A stretch of 64,000 nucleotides of DNA from Myxococcales bacterium 68-20 (GTDB lineage: Bacteria; Myxococcota_A; Polyangia; Polyangiales; Polyangiaceae), in assembly GCA_001899635.1 (NCBI GenBank), contig MKVQ01000003.1, positions 124,001-188,000 of the forward strand, read 5' to 3'. This document shows positions 1-32,855 of the stretch, piece by piece. The notes below the pieces were generated by a model. The model searched no databases, had not been told where the DNA came from, and was given only the letters and a program-made list of their open reading frames with translations. How positions within the stretch are numbered: the stretch's first letter is position 1; each line of letters begins with the position of its first letter. A program made the translations under genes and the position numbers.

Positions 1-162
1 GGTCCCGTCGACGTCCGTCTGGCAGGCCTCGCGCAGGCGGCCGTAGCTGACGGAGATGCCGTGCCCCTCGAGCAAGGACTTGAGCGACGCGGGCCCGCAG
101 TCCATCGCCGAAGTCTGCACGACCTCGGGCACGAGCCAGCGTCGCGCTCCCCCCATTCCCAT
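1..162 (-). CDS. N-terminal fragment of C39-peptidase ABC exporter
   Basis: The reading frame starts at ATG 162-160 and runs off the left edge, so only 54 residues are visible. They read as the start of a peptidase C39 domain: Gln16 (oxyanion-hole Gln), then Asp21-Cys22-Gly23-Pro24-Ala25 with Cys22 as the expected nucleophile, followed by the helix that normally contains Leu-Leu...Gly. Known members are inner-membrane ABC exporters that cut double-glycine leaders from peptides and export them. The start overlaps the stop of the HlyD-type gene (TGATG), so the two are very probably translationally coupled. The ATPase and membrane parts lie outside the window. The 54 residues match the C39 start well, but the full domain order is inferred. 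Confidence 0.85.
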   Translation of the reverse strand, partial: MGMGGARRWLVPEVVQTSAMDCGPASLKSLLEGHGISVSYGRLREACQTDVDGT

Positions 163-1400
163 CACGAGGCTCCGCCGGTGGGCAGCGAGGCCTTCGCCTC
201 CGGCGTCCGCGGACGCTCGAGGAGCTGCCCCGTCGCGCGAAGAACGAGCGTCGCGGGCGATGCCGCGTCGACCTCGATCTCGGTCGTCCCGGTCATTCCA
301 TGCTGAAGCGGGATCCGCCCCGACGGCTCGGCTGTGACGTCGAGCTCGATCCGCACGCGACCTTGCCGGGGCTCACTCGCGACCGACACGACCCGCGCGC
401 CGATCGCGCCGTATTGCGTCCACGGGTATCCGTCGAGCCGGACACGCGCCGTTTGGCCCGCACGGACACGCCCCACCGAGGTGTGCGGAGGAAACTCCGC
501 GACGACACGCAGAGCACCGCTCGGAACGATCACGCCGAGCTTCTCGCCTTCCTTGACCCACGCCCCGGCGGTCCGGATGGCGACGTCTTCGACACGCCCC
601 GCAACGGGCGCTCGGATCGTCCGCCGCTCGATCTCGTGCTCGAGCTCGGCGATGATCGCGAGTGACGTCGATCGGCTGCCTTCGAGCGTCGCGAGCTCAC
701 GCCGGAGATCTTCGATCCGCGCGATGCCTTGGCTCTCGCGCGTCCGCAAGGCTCGCGACTCGAGATCGGCCTCGAGCGCTCTCGCCTCCGCAGCGGCGCG
801 CGTCTCGTCGGCGCGAGCAGCGGCACGCTTCGCTTCGGCCTCCGAGATCGCGCCGCTCTCCTGGAGCTTCTGCGCGCGAAGCGCCTCCTCTCGCGCGAGC
901 CGCGCGCTGGTCTCCGCCTCGTCGTGCTTCGCCTTCCCTCCTCGCACGGCGACCGCGGTGGCGGCTCGGTCGTCGGCAAGCGAGCGCTCGTAGGCCGAGA
1001 GGACGCGCTCGAGAGCGCCGATCTGAGGCGAGAGGGTAGCCAGTCGCGTGCGCTCTTCGTAGAGACGCCGCTCCTCTGCCTCGGAGTCGAGCACGACGAG
1101 GACATCGCCCTTCTCTACCTCCTGGTTCAACGTGAGGTCGAAGACCTCGATCCGCCCCGACGCGAGCGCATCGATCGAGTGCGCGGCTCGCTCGGTCTCG
1201 AGCCGGGAGACATCGCTCACCTCGTAGACGCTCACCTTCGCGCCGAAGAGCCATGCGAGCCACGCTCCGAGAAGGACGACCGCAGACGCGATCGCGCAGT
1301 GAGGGAAGCGCGCTCGATCGACCGAGAGCGCGCGCATGGATCGAGCAAACGGAGCGGACACGAGCGCGCCCTCCAGCAACGAGCAGGCCATGCGCGTCAT
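162..1400 (-). CDS. HlyD-family periplasmic adaptor of peptide exporter
   Basis: A 412-residue membrane fusion protein. One transmembrane helix is visible at about residues 35-54, followed by a first biotinyl-lipoyl half, a long Ala/Glu/Arg-rich coiled coil (roughly 115-255), the second lipoyl half with the typical Arg-Ala-Pro-Val-Ala-Gly-Arg-Val motif, and a beta-barrel segment. Such proteins bridge an inner-membrane ABC exporter to the outer membrane. I chose ATG 1400 because it places the helix near the N-terminus and has GGAGGT about 15 bases upstream; the open frame extends to 1598 but without family-like sequence. It is directly coupled to the C39 exporter gene and divergent from the repeat-protein gene, which makes that protein the obvious candidate substrate (inference). 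Confidence 0.9.
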   Translation of the reverse strand: MTRMACSLLEGALVSAPFARSMRALSVDRARFPHCAIASAVVLLGAWLAWLFGAKVSVYEVSDVSRLETERAAHSIDALASGRIEVFDLTLNQEVEKGDVLVVLDSEAEERRLYEERTRLATLSPQIGALERVLSAYERSLADDRAATAVAVRGGKAKHDEAETSARLAREEALRAQKLQESGAISEAEAKRAAARADETRAAAEARALEADLESRALRTRESQGIARIEDLRRELATLEGSRSTSLAIIAELEHEIERRTIRAPVAGRVEDVAIRTAGAWVKEGEKLGVIVPSGALRVVAEFPPHTSVGRVRAGQTARVRLDGYPWTQYGAIGARVVSVASEPRQGRVRIELDVTAEPSGRIPLQHGMTGTTEIEVDAASPATLVLRATGQLLERPRTPEAKASLPTGGAS

Positions 1401-1520
1401 CGCATCGCGCGGGAGACCTCCGTGGACGCGCGCGTCACGCTGGTCGAACAAGCTCGAAGAATCTCGGCCTCGCGCCGCTGACCACTCGCAGAGGGGACCG
1501 CCGGCCGACGTAGAAATTTG

Positions 1521-1534
1521 CGAGAGGCCTCTCG
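1521..1534. promoter_or_regulatory. Perfect 14-bp palindrome, possible activator site
   Basis: CGAGAGGCCTCTCG is fully palindromic and sits about 80 bases upstream of the -24/-12 element of the repeat-protein gene, a common distance for an enhancer-binding-protein dimer. It lies in the 307-base divergent spacer between the HlyD gene and the repeat gene, so it could also serve the leftward operon. No binding data; the assignment is positional. Confidence 0.4.
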
Positions 1535-1606
1535 AGTTTTTGTTTCTTGCGAGCACCCGGGTCCCGTCCGGGATGCGGAGCGCACGAAAAGACCGCAAAT
1601 ATCGCG

Positions 1607-1622
1607 TGGCACATCACCTGCT
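1607..1622 (+). promoter_or_regulatory. Candidate sigma-54 promoter of repeat-protein gene
   Basis: TGGCAC-N5-CTGCT matches the -24/-12 consensus TGGCACG-N4-TTGC closely: the GG (1608-1609) and GC (1620-1621) are exactly 12 bases apart, as sigma-54 requires. Transcription would start near 1633, about 75 bases before the ATG at 1708. The same gene group encodes a sigma-54 enhancer-binding protein, which supports the call. Confidence 0.6.
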
Positions 1623-1675: not shown

Positions 1676-1707
1676 GCGGCGAACCGCAGCACTCATCGAG
1701 GGAAGCC

Positions 1708-2166
1708 ATGAAAGAAGACACGAAGAAGGACGACAAGCAGGCTCGAAACGTCGAGACGGAGAAGGTGAAGAGCGCCGGCGTCGTCGTGCGTAGCGGTACG
1801 AAAGCCGGCGGCCCGGTCCTCAATCACAATCAGGCCAAGGGCGTTCGCGTCCGCAGCGGTGTCAAAGCCGGCGGCCCGGTCCTCAATCACAATCAGGCCA
1901 AGGGCGTTCGCGTCCGCAGCGGCGTGAAGGCCGGCGGCTTCCGCCTCAATCACAATCAAGCCAAGGGCGTTCGCGTCCGGAGCGGCGTGAAGGCCGGCGG
2001 CTTCCGCCTCAATCACAACCAGGCGCACGGCGTGCAGGTGCGCACCGCGATCAAGGCGGGTGACTTCAAGCTGAATCACAACGCGGTGAAGGGCGTCCGC
2101 ATCCGCAGCGGGGTGAAGGCCGGCGGCATGCGCATGAATCACAACCAGGCCGTCGCGCGCGCGTAG
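1708..2166 (+). CDS. Basic 21-residue-repeat protein, candidate exported peptide precursor
   Basis: This 152-residue protein has a charged 22-residue leader rich in Lys, Asp and Glu, six tandem 21-residue repeats (residues 23-148) and a short tail ending Val-Ala-Arg-Ala. The repeat consensus is KGVRVRSGVKAGGFRLNHNQA: an alternating Val/Arg stretch, a Lys-Ala-Gly-Gly motif and Asn-His-Asn-Gln. It has no signal peptide and no cysteine. I chose ATG 1708, preceded by GAGGGA, because the upstream extension of the open frame to 1336 is unlike the repeats. The divergent C39 exporter and HlyD genes suggest export, and the Gly-Gly in nearly every repeat recalls C39 cleavage sites. However, the residues before Gly-Gly lack the usual hydrophobic leader pattern, so multi-site cleavage is only a hypothesis. 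I dimly recall short proteins with similar KAGG/NHNQ motifs in other bacteria, but no established function. Confidence 0.85.
   Translation: MKEDTKKDDKQARNVETEKVKSAGVVVRSGTKAGGPVLNHNQAKGVRVRSGVKAGGPVLNHNQAKGVRVRSGVKAGGFRLNHNQAKGVRVRSGVKAGGFRLNHNQAHGVQVRTAIKAGDFKLNHNAVKGVRIRSGVKAGGMRMNHNQAVARA
1774..2151 (+). repeat. Six tandem 63-bp coding repeats
   Basis: Six in-frame 63-bp units encode the 21-residue repeats. Units 1/2 and 3/4 are almost identical in DNA, including third codon positions, which points to recent duplication. Unit 5 (residues 107-127) is the most diverged: it has Gly-Asp in place of Gly-Gly and Asn-Ala in place of Asn-Gln. Confidence 0.95.
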
Positions 2167-2176
2167 CGAGCGGACG

Positions 2177-3340
2177 ATGACCACGGCCTCGTCGGCGGCG
2201 TCCATGAACGCCATCGAGGAACGACAGATCGCCAAGGCGAACCGTCTTCACGCCGCCGCCGACGAGGCCTCCAGCGCCGGAGACCACCGGCGTGCCGAGC
2301 GATCCTGCCGGCAAGCGCTTGCGATCTTCGAGCGCATCGACGGTCAACGGTCGCCGGACGTCGCGAACCTCTCCATCACGTTGTCCCGCATCCTCGGCGG
2401 CGGCGGCGGCGATCGTGCCGAGGCCCTGAAGGCAGCCCGTCGTGCGTGGGAGATCCTCGAGCCACTTCGCGGGAGCACGCCCGAGCTGTCTCTGCTCCGC
2501 TTCCTCGCCCGCCAGCAGCTCGGGGTCGCGCTGCGGGAAGCGGGGGACTTCCGTGGAGCGCGCCCGCTCCTCCTTCGCGCCGCTCGCACAGCGGAACGCC
2601 GATTCGGCAAGGACAGCATCGAGCTCGCCCTCGCCCTCAACCAAGTCGGGATCCTGTGCAAGTACACGAGCCGATACGAGGAGGGGCTGACTGCATACCG
2701 CCGCTCTCTCGCGATCCTGCGACGAGAGCTCGGGGCGTCTCATCCCGAGCTCGCATCGATCCATCACAACCTCGGCGGGATCGAGCACCATCGCGGGCGC
2801 TTCCGGAAGGCGGCAGTCCAGGCGGCAAGGTCGCTCGCCATCCGCGAAGCAGCGCTCGGCCGCTCCAGCCCGCTCGTGGCGGCCGACGCGGCCGCGTATG
2901 CCGCGATCCTCGCCGAGCTGGGGCGACGACGCGAGGCTCGCGCGCTCTACACGCGAGCGCACCGCATCTTCCTCCGCGTGTACGGCGAGCGGCACTACGA
3001 GGTTGCGATGAACACGCACAACCTCGCCGCGCTCGACGCGTCGTCCGGGCGCTTGCGTTCGGCCGAGACCCGCTATCGACGGGCGACCGAGCTCTTCACG
3101 CAAGCGATCGGACGGGATCATCCGGACACCGCGCTCGCTCGGTACAACCTCGCGGCGCTCCTAGCGACGCTGGGGCGCCCCGAGGAGGCGAGAGCTCACT
3201 GCATGCACGCGCTCCGCGTGTTCGAGGGAGCGTTCGGCAAGACTCACCCGCACACGGTCTCGACCGTCGACCTCCTCACCGAGCTCGACGGACTCTCCGG
3301 CATTACGACCTCCCGTCGGCGCCGCGTGCGCCGGCGCTGA
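2177..3340 (+). CDS. TPR (kinesin-light-chain-like) repeat protein
   Basis: A 387-residue soluble protein built from about seven tandem 42-residue TPR units of the TPR_10/TPR_12 type. Typical phrases are [15 protein letters not shown] and His-Pro-Asp-Thr-Ala between helices. TPRs are protein-binding scaffolds. There is no signal peptide or membrane segment. It starts 10 bases after the stop of the repeat protein and is probably in the same transcript, so it may bind the precursor or another component of the export system (inference). The start ATG 2177 has a weak ribosome site; ATG 2204 is an alternative. Confidence 0.85.
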
Positions 3341-3531: not shown

Positions 3532-5181
3532 ATGCCGCTTGCGGATGATGATGACTCGCCGTTCGTCGACGACACGAGCATCCTGCCGCGTGCTCGAGGC
3601 GACGACGCGTCGGGCGTCCGCCCCTGGAAGATCGCGATCGTCGATGACGAGCAGGAGGTCCACGACGTCACGGTCCTCGCGCTCAAGAGCGTCTCGTTCT
3701 CCGAGCGTGGGCTGTCGTTCCTGAGCGCGCGGTCGGCCCAGGCCGCGAAGAAGCTCCTCGCCGACAACCCCGACATCGCGCTCGTCTTGCTCGATGTCGT
3801 CATGGAGACGGACGACGCCGGACTGTCGCTCGTGAAGTACATCCGTGACGAGCTCGGCTACGGGCACGTTCGCATGGTCCTCAGGACCGGGCAGCCCGGC
3901 CAGGCGCCCGAGGAAACGGTCATCCGCCATTTCGACATCAGCGACTACCGCACGAAGACCGAGCTGACGTCGACCCGCCTGCTCACGACGGTGATCGCTG
4001 CGCTTCGAACGTACGAGCAGCTCCAGGCCGTGGAGAAGCAGCGTGCGGAGCTCGAGCGGCTCTATGTCGAGCAGAAGTCGGCGTACGAGGAGATCAAGGT
4101 CCTGAAGTCGGCGCTCGAACGCGAGCGTGACTACCTCCGCGAGGAGGTGAAGGAGGCCGAAGGCGGCGGGGACCTCGTCGGATCGAGCGCGGGGTTCGAA
4201 CAAGTCCGAGGGCAGATCGACGCCGTCGCGAAGACGGACGCGACGGTGCTGGTCCTCGGTGAGTCGGGCGTCGGCAAGGAGCTCGTGGCCAGGTCGATCC
4301 ACGAGAAGAGCGCGCGGGCGGCAGGGCCGCTCGTGAAGGTGAACTGCGCGAGCGTCCCGCGCGAGCTGTTCGAGAGCGAGTTCTTCGGTCACGTACGCGG
4401 CTCGTTCACGGGCGCGCACCGAGATCGCGTCGGGCGCTTCCAGCTCGCCGACACCGGGACGCTGTTCCTCGACGAGATCGGCGAAATCCCTCTCGAGCTC
4501 CAGGGAAAGCTCCTCCGCGCCTTGCAGGAGCGCGAGGTGGAGCGCGTAGGTGATACGAGAGCGCAGAAGGTCGACGTGCGCGTGGTCGCTGCGACGAACC
4601 GCGATCTCAAGGCTGCCGTGGAGGCGGGCACGTTCCGGGCGGACCTCTATTACCGCCTCAGCGTGTTCCCGCTGAAGATCCTGCCGCTCCGCGAGCGAAA
4701 GGCGGACATCGTTCCGCTCTTCGAGCACTTCGTGGCGAAGACTTGCCGGAGGCACGGGCGACCGTTCGTCCCGCTCTCACGCGAGGTCGCATGCATGCTC
4801 GAGAGCTACACCTGGCCTGGCAACGTCCGCGAGCTCGAGAACGTCGCGGAGCGCGCGCTCATTCTCTCTCCGGACGGGGTCCTTCGACTCGACGCCGCGC
4901 TCCCGGAGCTCGCGGCCGCTGAGGTCCTCGAACCGTCGACGCGCTCGAGTGCACACCTCCATGAAGGGAGCACCACGCCGGTGCGCACGATGACGATGCC
5001 GCCGCGCGGCTTCTACACGGTCGACGAGATGCGCGAGCTCGAGAAGCAGAACCTGGTCGCAGTGCTCGAGAAGGCGGGAGGCAAAATCGCGGGAGACGGC
5101 GGCGCAGCGGAGCTGCTCGGGATGAAGCCGTCGACGCTGACCTATCAGATCCGGAGCTTCGGCATCACGCGCAGGTCGTAG
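3532..5181 (+). CDS. Sigma-54-dependent response regulator (receiver-AAA-HTH)
   Basis: A 549-residue enhancer-binding protein. An N-terminal receiver (about 32-155; acidic pair Asp38-Asp39, phosphoacceptor Asp88, conserved Lys near 143) is of the type with a [11 protein letters not shown] stretch. A coiled-coil linker, an AAA+ domain (Walker A GESGVGKE at 243-250, Walker B with Phe-Leu-Asp-Glu-Ile-Gly-Glu) and a C-terminal Fis-type helix-turn-helix follow. The sigma-54 contact loop reads GSFTGA (290-295) instead of GAFTGA, a tolerated variant. ATG 3532 is strongly supported by GGGAGGAG seven bases upstream. It ends seven bases from the convergent V4R kinase, a likely signalling partner. It probably drives the -24/-12 promoter at 1607 (inference). 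Confidence 0.92.
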
Positions 5182-5188
5182 TCGTCCG

Positions 5189-6847
5189 TCATCGATCGAC
5201 TGCGAAGGTCACCACGAACGTCGCCCCCTTGCCGGGGGACGTCTCGAGCTCGATGCGGCCGCGCAGGACTTCGGCGACGAGAGAGTGGACGATGTGCAGA
5301 CCGAGCCCCGACCCACCTTCCGCGCGCCCCGTCGTGAAGAACGGCTGGAACGCCTGCGCCTTGACGTCGTCGCTCATTCCGCGGCCGTCGTCGGCGTACC
5401 GAAGCGAGATCCTCCCATCGGGCAAACGCGCGATGCGGACGTCCACGTGGAGTCTTGGCGGATCGGGTGTCGCCTCCACGCGTGCAGGAGCCGCCGTGAC
5501 CCCAGGCGCCGCGTGCATCACCGTGTTCGTGAAGAAGTTCGTCACGATCTGCGAGATCGCGCCGGGATAGGTGATGCACTCGAGCGTCTCACCGTCGCTC
5601 GTGAACGACACGAGGAGGCCCGCCTTGCGCGCGAGCGGTCCGAGACTCTCGAGCGTCTCGCGGACGTAGGCAGCGAGGTCGACGCGCCTCTGCTCCTGCG
5701 ACACGTGGTCGACGGAAGCGCGTTTGAACTTCGTGATCTGGTATGCGGCTCGCCCGAGGTTCGTCTCCACGAGCGAGAGGGCCTGTCCCGCCCGCTCGAG
5801 GAAGCTCCGCAGGTCCCCCTTCGTGAGCGCACCGTCCTCGAACTTTTGACGCACCGTCGCGATCTCGTCCTGCGCGACCCCGGTCGCGGTGACGGCGACA
5901 CCGAGCGGCGTGTTGACCTCGTGGGCGACGCCGGAGACGAGCAGCCCCACCGTCGCGAGGCGCTCCTTGCGAACGAGCTCCTCCTGAGCCTCCTCGAGCC
6001 GCTCCAGCGACCTCCGCACCTCCTCTTCGGCGCGCTTGCGCTCGAAGTACGTCGGGACGTCGAACCCGTGGTCGCGCATCCCCCCCGGGTCGATCCCGAA
6101 GTACTCGCGCGCGGCGGAAGCCACGCGATCCGGCTTTGCCATCACGAAGAAGCAGCCATCGTCGCCGCGTGCCCTGCACTTGACCTCGAGCGCGGTCAGC
6201 TCGACATCGAAGCTCGCCTGACACCAACCGGAAGAATAGCCGCCGTTCATGATGCATGCAGGACCGTCGGACCTCCGCCCGGCGCGCAGGAAGCTCGCAG
6301 CCTCGAACGAATACGGGTGCTCGTAGATGAGGAGGAAGTCGTCTCCCGGGACGGGGTTGCTGCGCGGGTCGATGGCGACCTGCGCCCAGCCCGTGTACGC
6401 GAAGTGGATCGGGCCCCCCGTGAGCTTCTCGACGGCCTCGCGCGACCCCAGCTTCTCGTGCATCTGACGCGCATCGTGGAAGCCGATCGTGTGCCCGATG
6501 TCGAAGAGGAAGCCGCGCGCGATGGCCAAGGCCTCTCGCTCGCCGCGATCGGCATAGAGGTTCACGAGCGTGTCGAGGAAGTCGATCGCGAACGCCGAGG
6601 CGCGAATGAGGAGGTAGCGCTCGCCGTCGATCGCGACGAGCGCGCGCGCCGGATCGATCTCGACCCGCCCGAAGACATCGCGCATCGTCGCTGCGGTGCG
6701 GTCGAAGAGAGGCGCATCCGCCGCCGGCACCTTCACGATCGTCGGTGAGCTCGGCTCGAACACACCTGCCCGCAGGCGTGCGTTCTCGCGCTCGAGCTCC
6801 TCGATGCGCGCCTTCAACACCGACGTTCCAGCCCCCTCTTCGCTCAT
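5189..6847 (-). CDS. V4R-domain sensor histidine kinase
   Basis: A 552-residue soluble kinase with no membrane segment. An N-terminal region resembling the XylR/DmpR sensory module (about 50-240) ends in a V4R fold with the conserved Glu-Val-Lys-Cys...Gly-Asp-Asp-Gly-Cys-Phe-Phe cysteine pattern. V4R domains bind small, often hydrophobic or aromatic ligands. A coiled coil (about 268-300), a histidine box of the form His309-Glu-Val-Asn-Thr-Pro-Leu-Gly and a HATPase_c domain follow (Asp-Asp-Gly-Arg-Gly-Met, then Gly-Ser-Gly-Leu-Gly-Leu). It converges on the sigma-54 regulator with only seven bases between stops, so it is the natural candidate to phosphorylate it. ATG 6847 gives a full-length protein. 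Confidence 0.88.
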   Translation of the reverse strand: MSEEGAGTSVLKARIEELERENARLRAGVFEPSSPTIVKVPAADAPLFDRTAATMRDVFGRVEIDPARALVAIDGERYLLIRASAFAIDFLDTLVNLYADRGEREALAIARGFLFDIGHTIGFHDARQMHEKLGSREAVEKLTGGPIHFAYTGWAQVAIDPRSNPVPGDDFLLIYEHPYSFEAASFLRAGRRSDGPACIMNGGYSSGWCQASFDVELTALEVKCRARGDDGCFFVMAKPDRVASAAREYFGIDPGGMRDHGFDVPTYFERKRAEEEVRRSLERLEEAQEELVRKERLATVGLLVSGVAHEVNTPLGVAVTATGVAQDEIATVRQKFEDGALTKGDLRSFLERAGQALSLVETNLGRAAYQITKFKRASVDHVSQEQRRVDLAAYVRETLESLGPLARKAGLLVSFTSDGETLECITYPGAISQIVTNFFTNTVMHAAPGVTAAPARVEATPDPPRLHVDVRIARLPDGRISLRYADDGRGMSDDVKAQAFQPFFTTGRAEGGSGLGLHIVHSLVAEVLRGRIELETSPGKGATFVVTFAVDR

Positions 6848-32699: not shown

Positions 32700-32758
32700 C
32701 GGGCCCCGAGCATAGTCAACGACGGCTCGGAGGCAACCCTCCACAGCGATCGCGCGGC

Positions 32759-32803
32759 CTCACGCGGCCTCAGGCGGTCTCAGGCGGTCTCAGGCGGTCT
32801 CAG
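32759..32803. repeat. Tandem 10-bp repeat
   Basis: CTCAGGCGGT occurs three times in exact tandem (32769-32798), preceded by a degenerate copy and followed by a half copy. It lies between the esterase start and the hemC stop. It is a simple minisatellite with no obvious function. Confidence 0.85.
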
Positions 32804-32855
32804 CGCTCTCACTTAGCGCGACGGGCCCTCCGGCCGGGAAAAAGCCGGGCGTCCG

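Follow-up and report, generated by a model that had tools for sequence, protein, structure and literature searches.

What does a gene built of short, near-identical repeats produce when it lies divergent from a type I exporter that carries a C39 peptidase? The question is posed by an open reading frame at 1708-2166 (+) of the window, the 64-kb stretch of DNA analysed here (G000:C3:124001-188000 in a genome of 11.9 Mb). This frame, called REP below, encodes 152 amino acids with six near-identical 21-residue units.

The repeat gene and its neighbours

1..165, minus strand: start of a C39-peptidase ABC transporter, which continues left of the window (G000:C3:121475-124162)
162..1598, minus strand: HlyD-family adaptor of a type I exporter, divergent from REP (coordinates of the longest ORF, whose TTG at 1598 probably lies upstream of the true start)
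1607..1622, plus strand: sigma-54 (-24/-12) promoter-like site TGGCACATCACCTGCT, 85 nt ahead of the REP ATG
1698..1705, plus strand: Shine-Dalgarno-like ribosome-binding site GAGGGAAG in the sequence close upstream of REP
1708..2166, plus strand: REP, 152 aa, with a 34-residue N-terminal part and six proposed leader-core units
2177..3340, plus strand: TPR protein (TPR_12, kinesin-light-chain type), directly 3' of REP and, at other loci too, a conserved REP neighbour
3532..5181, plus strand: sigma-54 activator with an AAA+ domain and Fis-type HTH, and by eye a receiver-like N-terminal part
5189..6847, minus strand: histidine kinase with a XylR_N/V4R-like sensor region (V4R under the Pfam cut-off)

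The repeats are real and look as the original prediction described them, with KAGG in five of six units and KAGD followed by NHNA in unit 5. The units read KAGGPVLNHNQ (twice), KAGGFRLNHNQ (twice), KAGDFKLNHNA and KAGGMRMNHNQ, and in unit 1 (TKAGG) Thr, not Val, precedes Lys. Tandem Repeats Finder reports a period of 63 nt, 5.6 copies and a score of 348, by a wide margin the strongest tandem array of the window. Elsewhere, at 32754-32811, the window holds a short tandem array of GCGGTCTCAG (5.9 copies, 91% matches). Comparison among the REP units gives pS=0.45 and pN=0.23, so the array is more than a recent DNA repeat. A same-genus orthologue (G545, L076) has four 21-residue units and the gene order seen in the window.

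Left of the window, a second ABC transporter follows the C39-peptidase ABC transporter. The trio of HlyD, C39-ABC and second ABC also adjoins REP at L013, L017, L018, L076 and L087, while several REP genes have no exporter alongside. In a class sample the exporter occurred in 9/11 REP genomes vs 46/306 others (p=3e-6, uncorrected for kinship). The C39 catalytic residues Gln, Cys, His and Asp are present in 46/46 exporters. The window genome carries a second C39-ABC cassette (L136, G000:C4:354500-373500; 42% identical), and a search of that cassette for a clear substrate found none.

The TPR_12 protein accompanies REP in most exporter loci and also in REP loci that lack an exporter. It lies near 5/6 REP cassettes vs 3/40 REP-less ones (p=2e-4), and the genomes of those three REP-less cassettes carry REP genes elsewhere. 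At three loci the TPR domain beside REP is fused to a Ser/Thr kinase (L019 8271-10874, L083 4351-7437, L085 3936-6518). Among the neighbours of 19 REP loci we found no recurring maturation enzyme. Radical-SAM-like ORFs occur at only 2 of the 19, and a radical SAM partner for REP was dropped, since it did not recur across loci. One of these ORFs (L018, 9252 onward, +; 632 aa) lies near a three-unit REP and is not conserved at other loci.

The site TGGCACATCACCTGCT is the window's sole hit for a strict sigma-54 pattern, where 0.08 were expected. Sites of similar score, 36-75 nt ahead of the REP start, precede the REP genes of L076, L013 (both), L016, L017 and L021, with a less perfect one at L080. 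None of 395 background upstream regions attains the score of these sites; the remaining REP genes have weak sites or none. No sigma-54 sites were found upstream of non-REP precursors, which argues that sigma-54 control belongs to the REP genes. ORFs resembling the window's activator are present at four more REP loci.

Conservation of the unit and the position of a cut

Searches of REP against Pfam, NCBIfam, PHROGs and PDB sequences gave nothing useful, apart from one PHROG annotated without a function that matches 23 residues of L013 (4e-6). Plasmids yielded one insignificant match, viral contigs none, and a literature search for the motif nothing relevant. The ideas of a metal binder or a nucleic-acid binder, both raised in the original prediction, drew no support from family and fold searches. 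Two chance matches from the first homologue search (L008, L009) were discarded, as were L014 and L015, which by eye are ribonuclease-J-like and have only GDFKLNHN in common with REP.

Searches with the whole protein and with a single-unit HMM place REP genes in about 16 genomes, from several families of the window's phylum and two genomes of the phylum containing a Terriglobia genome. The relatives have 1 to 16 units of 15 to more than 26 residues, for example 16 units of 23 residues in L013 and nine of 17 in L016. Versions with one or two units also exist (24-43 aa); the single-unit proteins of L081 and L077 have 24 and 35 residues. Several REPs have no N-terminal extension, their first residues already being a minimal leader of 10 residues (MKTKTQIKAG). 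Some relatives depart from the regular pattern. L086 (9782-10360) carries Cys-x-x-Cys inserts between KAG and NHN, with irregular spacing and a Pro-rich linker separating the units. A 38-residue paralogue in L013 (9290-9403) has two motifs, lacks Asn-His and has its own sigma-54-like site. The arrays of L017 (10129-10710) and L022 (1-192) finish in a degenerate, coreless motif (...SAVRAD, ...SAIRED), which looks as though the final site had become dispensable.

What these proteins share is the element [VI]-[RK]-[TS]-x-[VI]-[KR]-A-G, followed by [NQ]-H, which is found in the second half of the unit in nearly all REP proteins. Counting back from the Gly of Ala-Gly as P1, 85 units drawn from 21 REP proteins have Gly at P1 (100%), Ala at P2 (96%), Lys/Arg at P3 (98%), Val/Ile/Leu/Thr/Ala at P4 and Thr/Ser at P6 (99%), conservation that is partly by construction because these positions belonged to the unit pattern or filter. 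The positions free of that filter are Arg/Lys at P7 (89%), mostly Val/Ile at P8, mostly Leu/Val at P10, and +1, the residue after Ala-Gly. In L013 the silent sites of 15 aligned units are near saturation (pS 0.70), and G-L-x-h-[RK]-T-x-h-K-A-G and N-H vary little or not at all; each unit has thus been kept by selection.

The residue at +1 varies freely. It is Gly in 41/85 units and in only 1/16 of L013, so Gly-Gly is not the conserved element, and homologues without it keep the rest of the unit. The original prediction had proposed a multi-core precursor cut by C39 after each Gly-Gly, and had named just such homologues as a refutation, which here tells against a cut after KAGG. The precursor half of that idea is favoured by the retention of Ala-Gly (96-100%), and we consider the cut after KAGG very improbable. 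With Gly, Ala or Ser at +1, 57/85 units would show GG, GA or GS, the known C39 motifs (PMC10885120), but the other 28/85 carry one of R, K, D, P, N, L and M at that position, including the window's KAGD. Such a cut would also put Lys/Arg at -4, where the C39 peptidase LahT150 usually has Val, Leu or Ile, accepts Thr and fails with Lys or Asp; Lys at -3 is tolerated (PMC6363468). Shifting the cut upstream by one residue, so that it follows KAG, places Val, Ile or (unit 1) Thr at -4 in every window unit, so the original prediction's own objection to a C39 substrate, Lys at -4, falls away, and the KAGD unit is explained. In this register the hydrophobic residues of the leader lie at -4 in most units and at -8 and -10, with Arg/Lys at -7. 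For the window protein it would give the following products, with calculated monoisotopic masses, in order, of 2143.21 (twice), 2250.26, 2273.23, 2265.28 and 1454.70 Da.

1780..1809, plus strand: leader motif 1, VVVRSGTKAG, P10-P1 of unit 1; proposed cut after 1809
1810..1872, plus strand: predicted peptide GPVLNHNQAKGVRVRSGVKAG, 21 aa
1873..1935, plus strand: predicted peptide GPVLNHNQAKGVRVRSGVKAG again, 21 aa
1936..1998, plus strand: predicted peptide GFRLNHNQAKGVRVRSGVKAG, 21 aa
1999..2061, plus strand: predicted peptide GFRLNHNQAHGVQVRTAIKAG, 21 aa
2062..2124, plus strand: predicted peptide DFKLNHNAVKGVRIRSGVKAG, 21 aa
2125..2163, plus strand: predicted C-terminal peptide GMRMNHNQAVARA, 13 aa

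The motif in other candidate exporter substrates

Should the KAG segment serve export and cleavage, further substrates of this exporter would be expected to carry it as well. We therefore screened forty REP-less HlyD/C39-ABC/second-ABC cassettes for the REP motif. A strict pattern applied to the C-termini of short ORFs gave 8 hits within 3 kb of the cassettes (192 kb) and 1 farther away (204 kb). When an HMM of the REP P10-P1 segment only was run blind on 11,117 ORFs of REP-less loci, short motif-bearing ORFs ranked first, although their single E-values are weak (best 0.03), which counts against a leader-core reading of REP. In these ORFs the motif lies near the C-terminus, ahead of unrelated tails (VARPIVVC, SGFQGPPIIPRPAA, FRLSGWGDVGFKPRQ and others). 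In L146 (KVRTNLKGG) and L152 (RIRTHVRGG) Gly-Gly replaces Ala-Gly itself, not the next pair; this sets the register, with the cut after KAG, and argues further against KAGG. One short-ORF family (L144 4252-4782, L134 12397-12687) has the motif, then a tail containing CKPWLCPMP, with an exporter adjacent.

Two of the screened ORFs, both in L147, are microviridin-type precursors of the form PFFARFLEDQKR-VRTGVKAG-RGITTLKHPSD..., one of which reaches 54.6 bits with NF033738 (cut-off 26). In a search across the family, one related genus (five genomes) yielded nine microviridin-type precursors. [VI]RTGVKAG stands exactly at the leader/core junction in 9/9, with G, K or R next, and 8/9 are shown adjoining a HlyD gene. 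KAG is missing from the microviridin-like precursors of two other genera, and 5/6 of their loci adjoin a different ABC transporter. It is thus the exporter, and not the core, that the motif goes with.

Polyprotein, fibre or docking array

A tag that seems to serve related exporters as a cleavage mark recurs in every REP unit, so REP is probably a chopped polyprotein. In full, the reading we prefer, at somewhat better than even confidence, is that of a polyprotein of tandem leader-core units that is under sigma-54 control and is exported with a TPR partner. Each of six units would pair an export/cleavage signal, h-x-[VI]-[RK]-[TS]-x-[VI]-[KR]-A-G, with a core holding the conserved Asn/Gln-His. 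The divergent HlyD/C39-ABC/second-ABC exporter would recognise the signal, its C39 cysteine protease would cut behind each Lys-Ala-Gly, and five cationic 21-residue peptides and one 13-mer would leave the cell. Transcription would start at the sigma-54 promoter, probably driven by the nearby activator, and the TPR protein of the adjacent gene may be a dedicated chaperone, adaptor or regulator.

The array may instead stay whole. The original prediction had named a curli-like fibre as an alternative and structure prediction as a check, and AlphaFold2 (AF2) does model a beta-solenoid at medium confidence. This would be an uncut, secreted, functional-amyloid-like fibre of the curli/FapC kind with one rung per unit, in which the strand with alternating hydrophobic residues faces the interior and ladders of Asn and His line the corners; type I export would merely carry the protein out, removing at most the first unit. 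The scores are pLDDT 73.8 and pTM 0.69 for the window protein (7-row alignment), and 76.6 and 0.71 for the array of L013 alone. The in-out alternation L-x-V-x-T-x-V-x-A is conserved, and the best Foldseek matches are FapC (E 0.1) and CsgA (8c50; E 0.009, probability 0.84), but TM-scores of the top matches are just 0.14-0.26, and AF2 is known to give repeats confident but unreal beta-solenoids (PMC11795689). The units of L013 are well diverged, so the fibre keeps real weight despite such over-prediction. We nevertheless judge it unlikely: proteins of one or two units (24-43 aa) and the irregular spacing and Pro-rich linker of L086 suit a solenoid poorly, and a fibre leaves unexplained why microviridin leaders finish with that same strand sequence.

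A further possibility, which seems to us more improbable still, is that the motif is a docking tag for the exporter or the TPR protein, copied for avidity, and that a single cut on the N-terminal side frees a multivalent secreted protein. The association of the TPR gene with REP cassettes and the window protein's 34-residue N-terminal extension would suit this arrangement. Several homologues, however, have no extension and carry the motif at the very start, and the A-G end is retained in every unit under strong selection.

The polyprotein reading has its own difficulties, among them the ordered solenoids modelled for two arrays. In the shortest arrays, with units of 15-17 residues, the signal itself would be most of each product. 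No conserved maturation enzyme was found at the REP loci, and several REP genes lie away from an exporter. Its proposed leader is also unusual for C39. REP resembles the C39-exported peptides (LahT, ComA, colicin V) in having a C39-ABC with intact catalytic residues, an HlyD adaptor, and a short leader with a small-residue pair at its end and, in most units, a hydrophobic residue at -4. It differs in that the leader recurs in every unit and ends in Ala-Gly (96% of units), the canonical GG/GA/GS end being absent. Its hydrophobic residues lie at -4, -8 and -10, not -4, -7 and -12, and the basic -7 is disliked by LahT150; the pattern is beta-like rather than helical.

Other known systems match in part. 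The NHLM/NHLP export system likewise combines a C39-ABC, a second ABC and HlyD, and the best NCBIfam match of the C39-ABC is TIGR03796. Scores for all three models stay far below the curated cut-offs (TIGR03796 182.9/853, TIGR03797 120.2/709, TIGR03794 43.1/156 bits), and a leader of the nitrile-hydratase type is missing. Several cores per polypeptide are a feature of multi-core RiPP precursors (microviridin AMdnA, PMC5934393; cyanobactins), as they would be of REP. In REP each core has its own leader-end motif, C39 is the protease proposed to separate them, and no maturation enzyme recurs at the 19 loci. The microviridin-type graspetide precursors of the same bacterial family have the [VI]RTGVKAG junction and the type of exporter in common with REP; unlike REP, they have a single leader, a KYPSD core and a PFFARFL helix. 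REP has no TxKYPSD-type core, and the window genome has no NF033738 match. CsgA and FapC have Asn/Gln-rich repeats of about 20 residues, and REP is predicted to form a beta-solenoid as they do; its repeat motif is different, without significant sequence match or any Pfam or NCBIfam family above cut-off, and type I exporter genes are adjacent. Since REP fails the GG/GA/GS motif, the NHLM cut-offs and the microviridin core, we do not place it in those families. The best account is by analogy: REP would work like multi-core precursors and C39-exported peptides.

On a broader scale, we see an even chance that a family of C39 peptidase-transporters reads a short, beta-like Ala-Gly leader that can be repeated in tandem, with up to 16 leader-core substrates per protein secreted as sigma-54-controlled Asn-His peptides. 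In this survey the family turned up mostly in the window's phylum, and in two genomes of another. If true, this would be an iterated-leader logic in C39 export, recognition element and product alternating along one chain. The motif hRTxhKAG next to HlyD/C39-ABC would then be a handle for many unannotated short exported peptides, graspetides included. Published accounts describe the protease of microviridins as unidentified (PMC5934393) and the enzyme that cleaves graspetides as unknown (PMC8939145); in this bacterial family, the motif suggests a specific candidate. The microviridin-type precursors beside the C39 exporter are themselves unusual (L147 11191-11625 and 11856-12197; L157-L160; L167-L172). 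Most have two KYPSD-like cores, in some cases with poly-Gly linkers between them.
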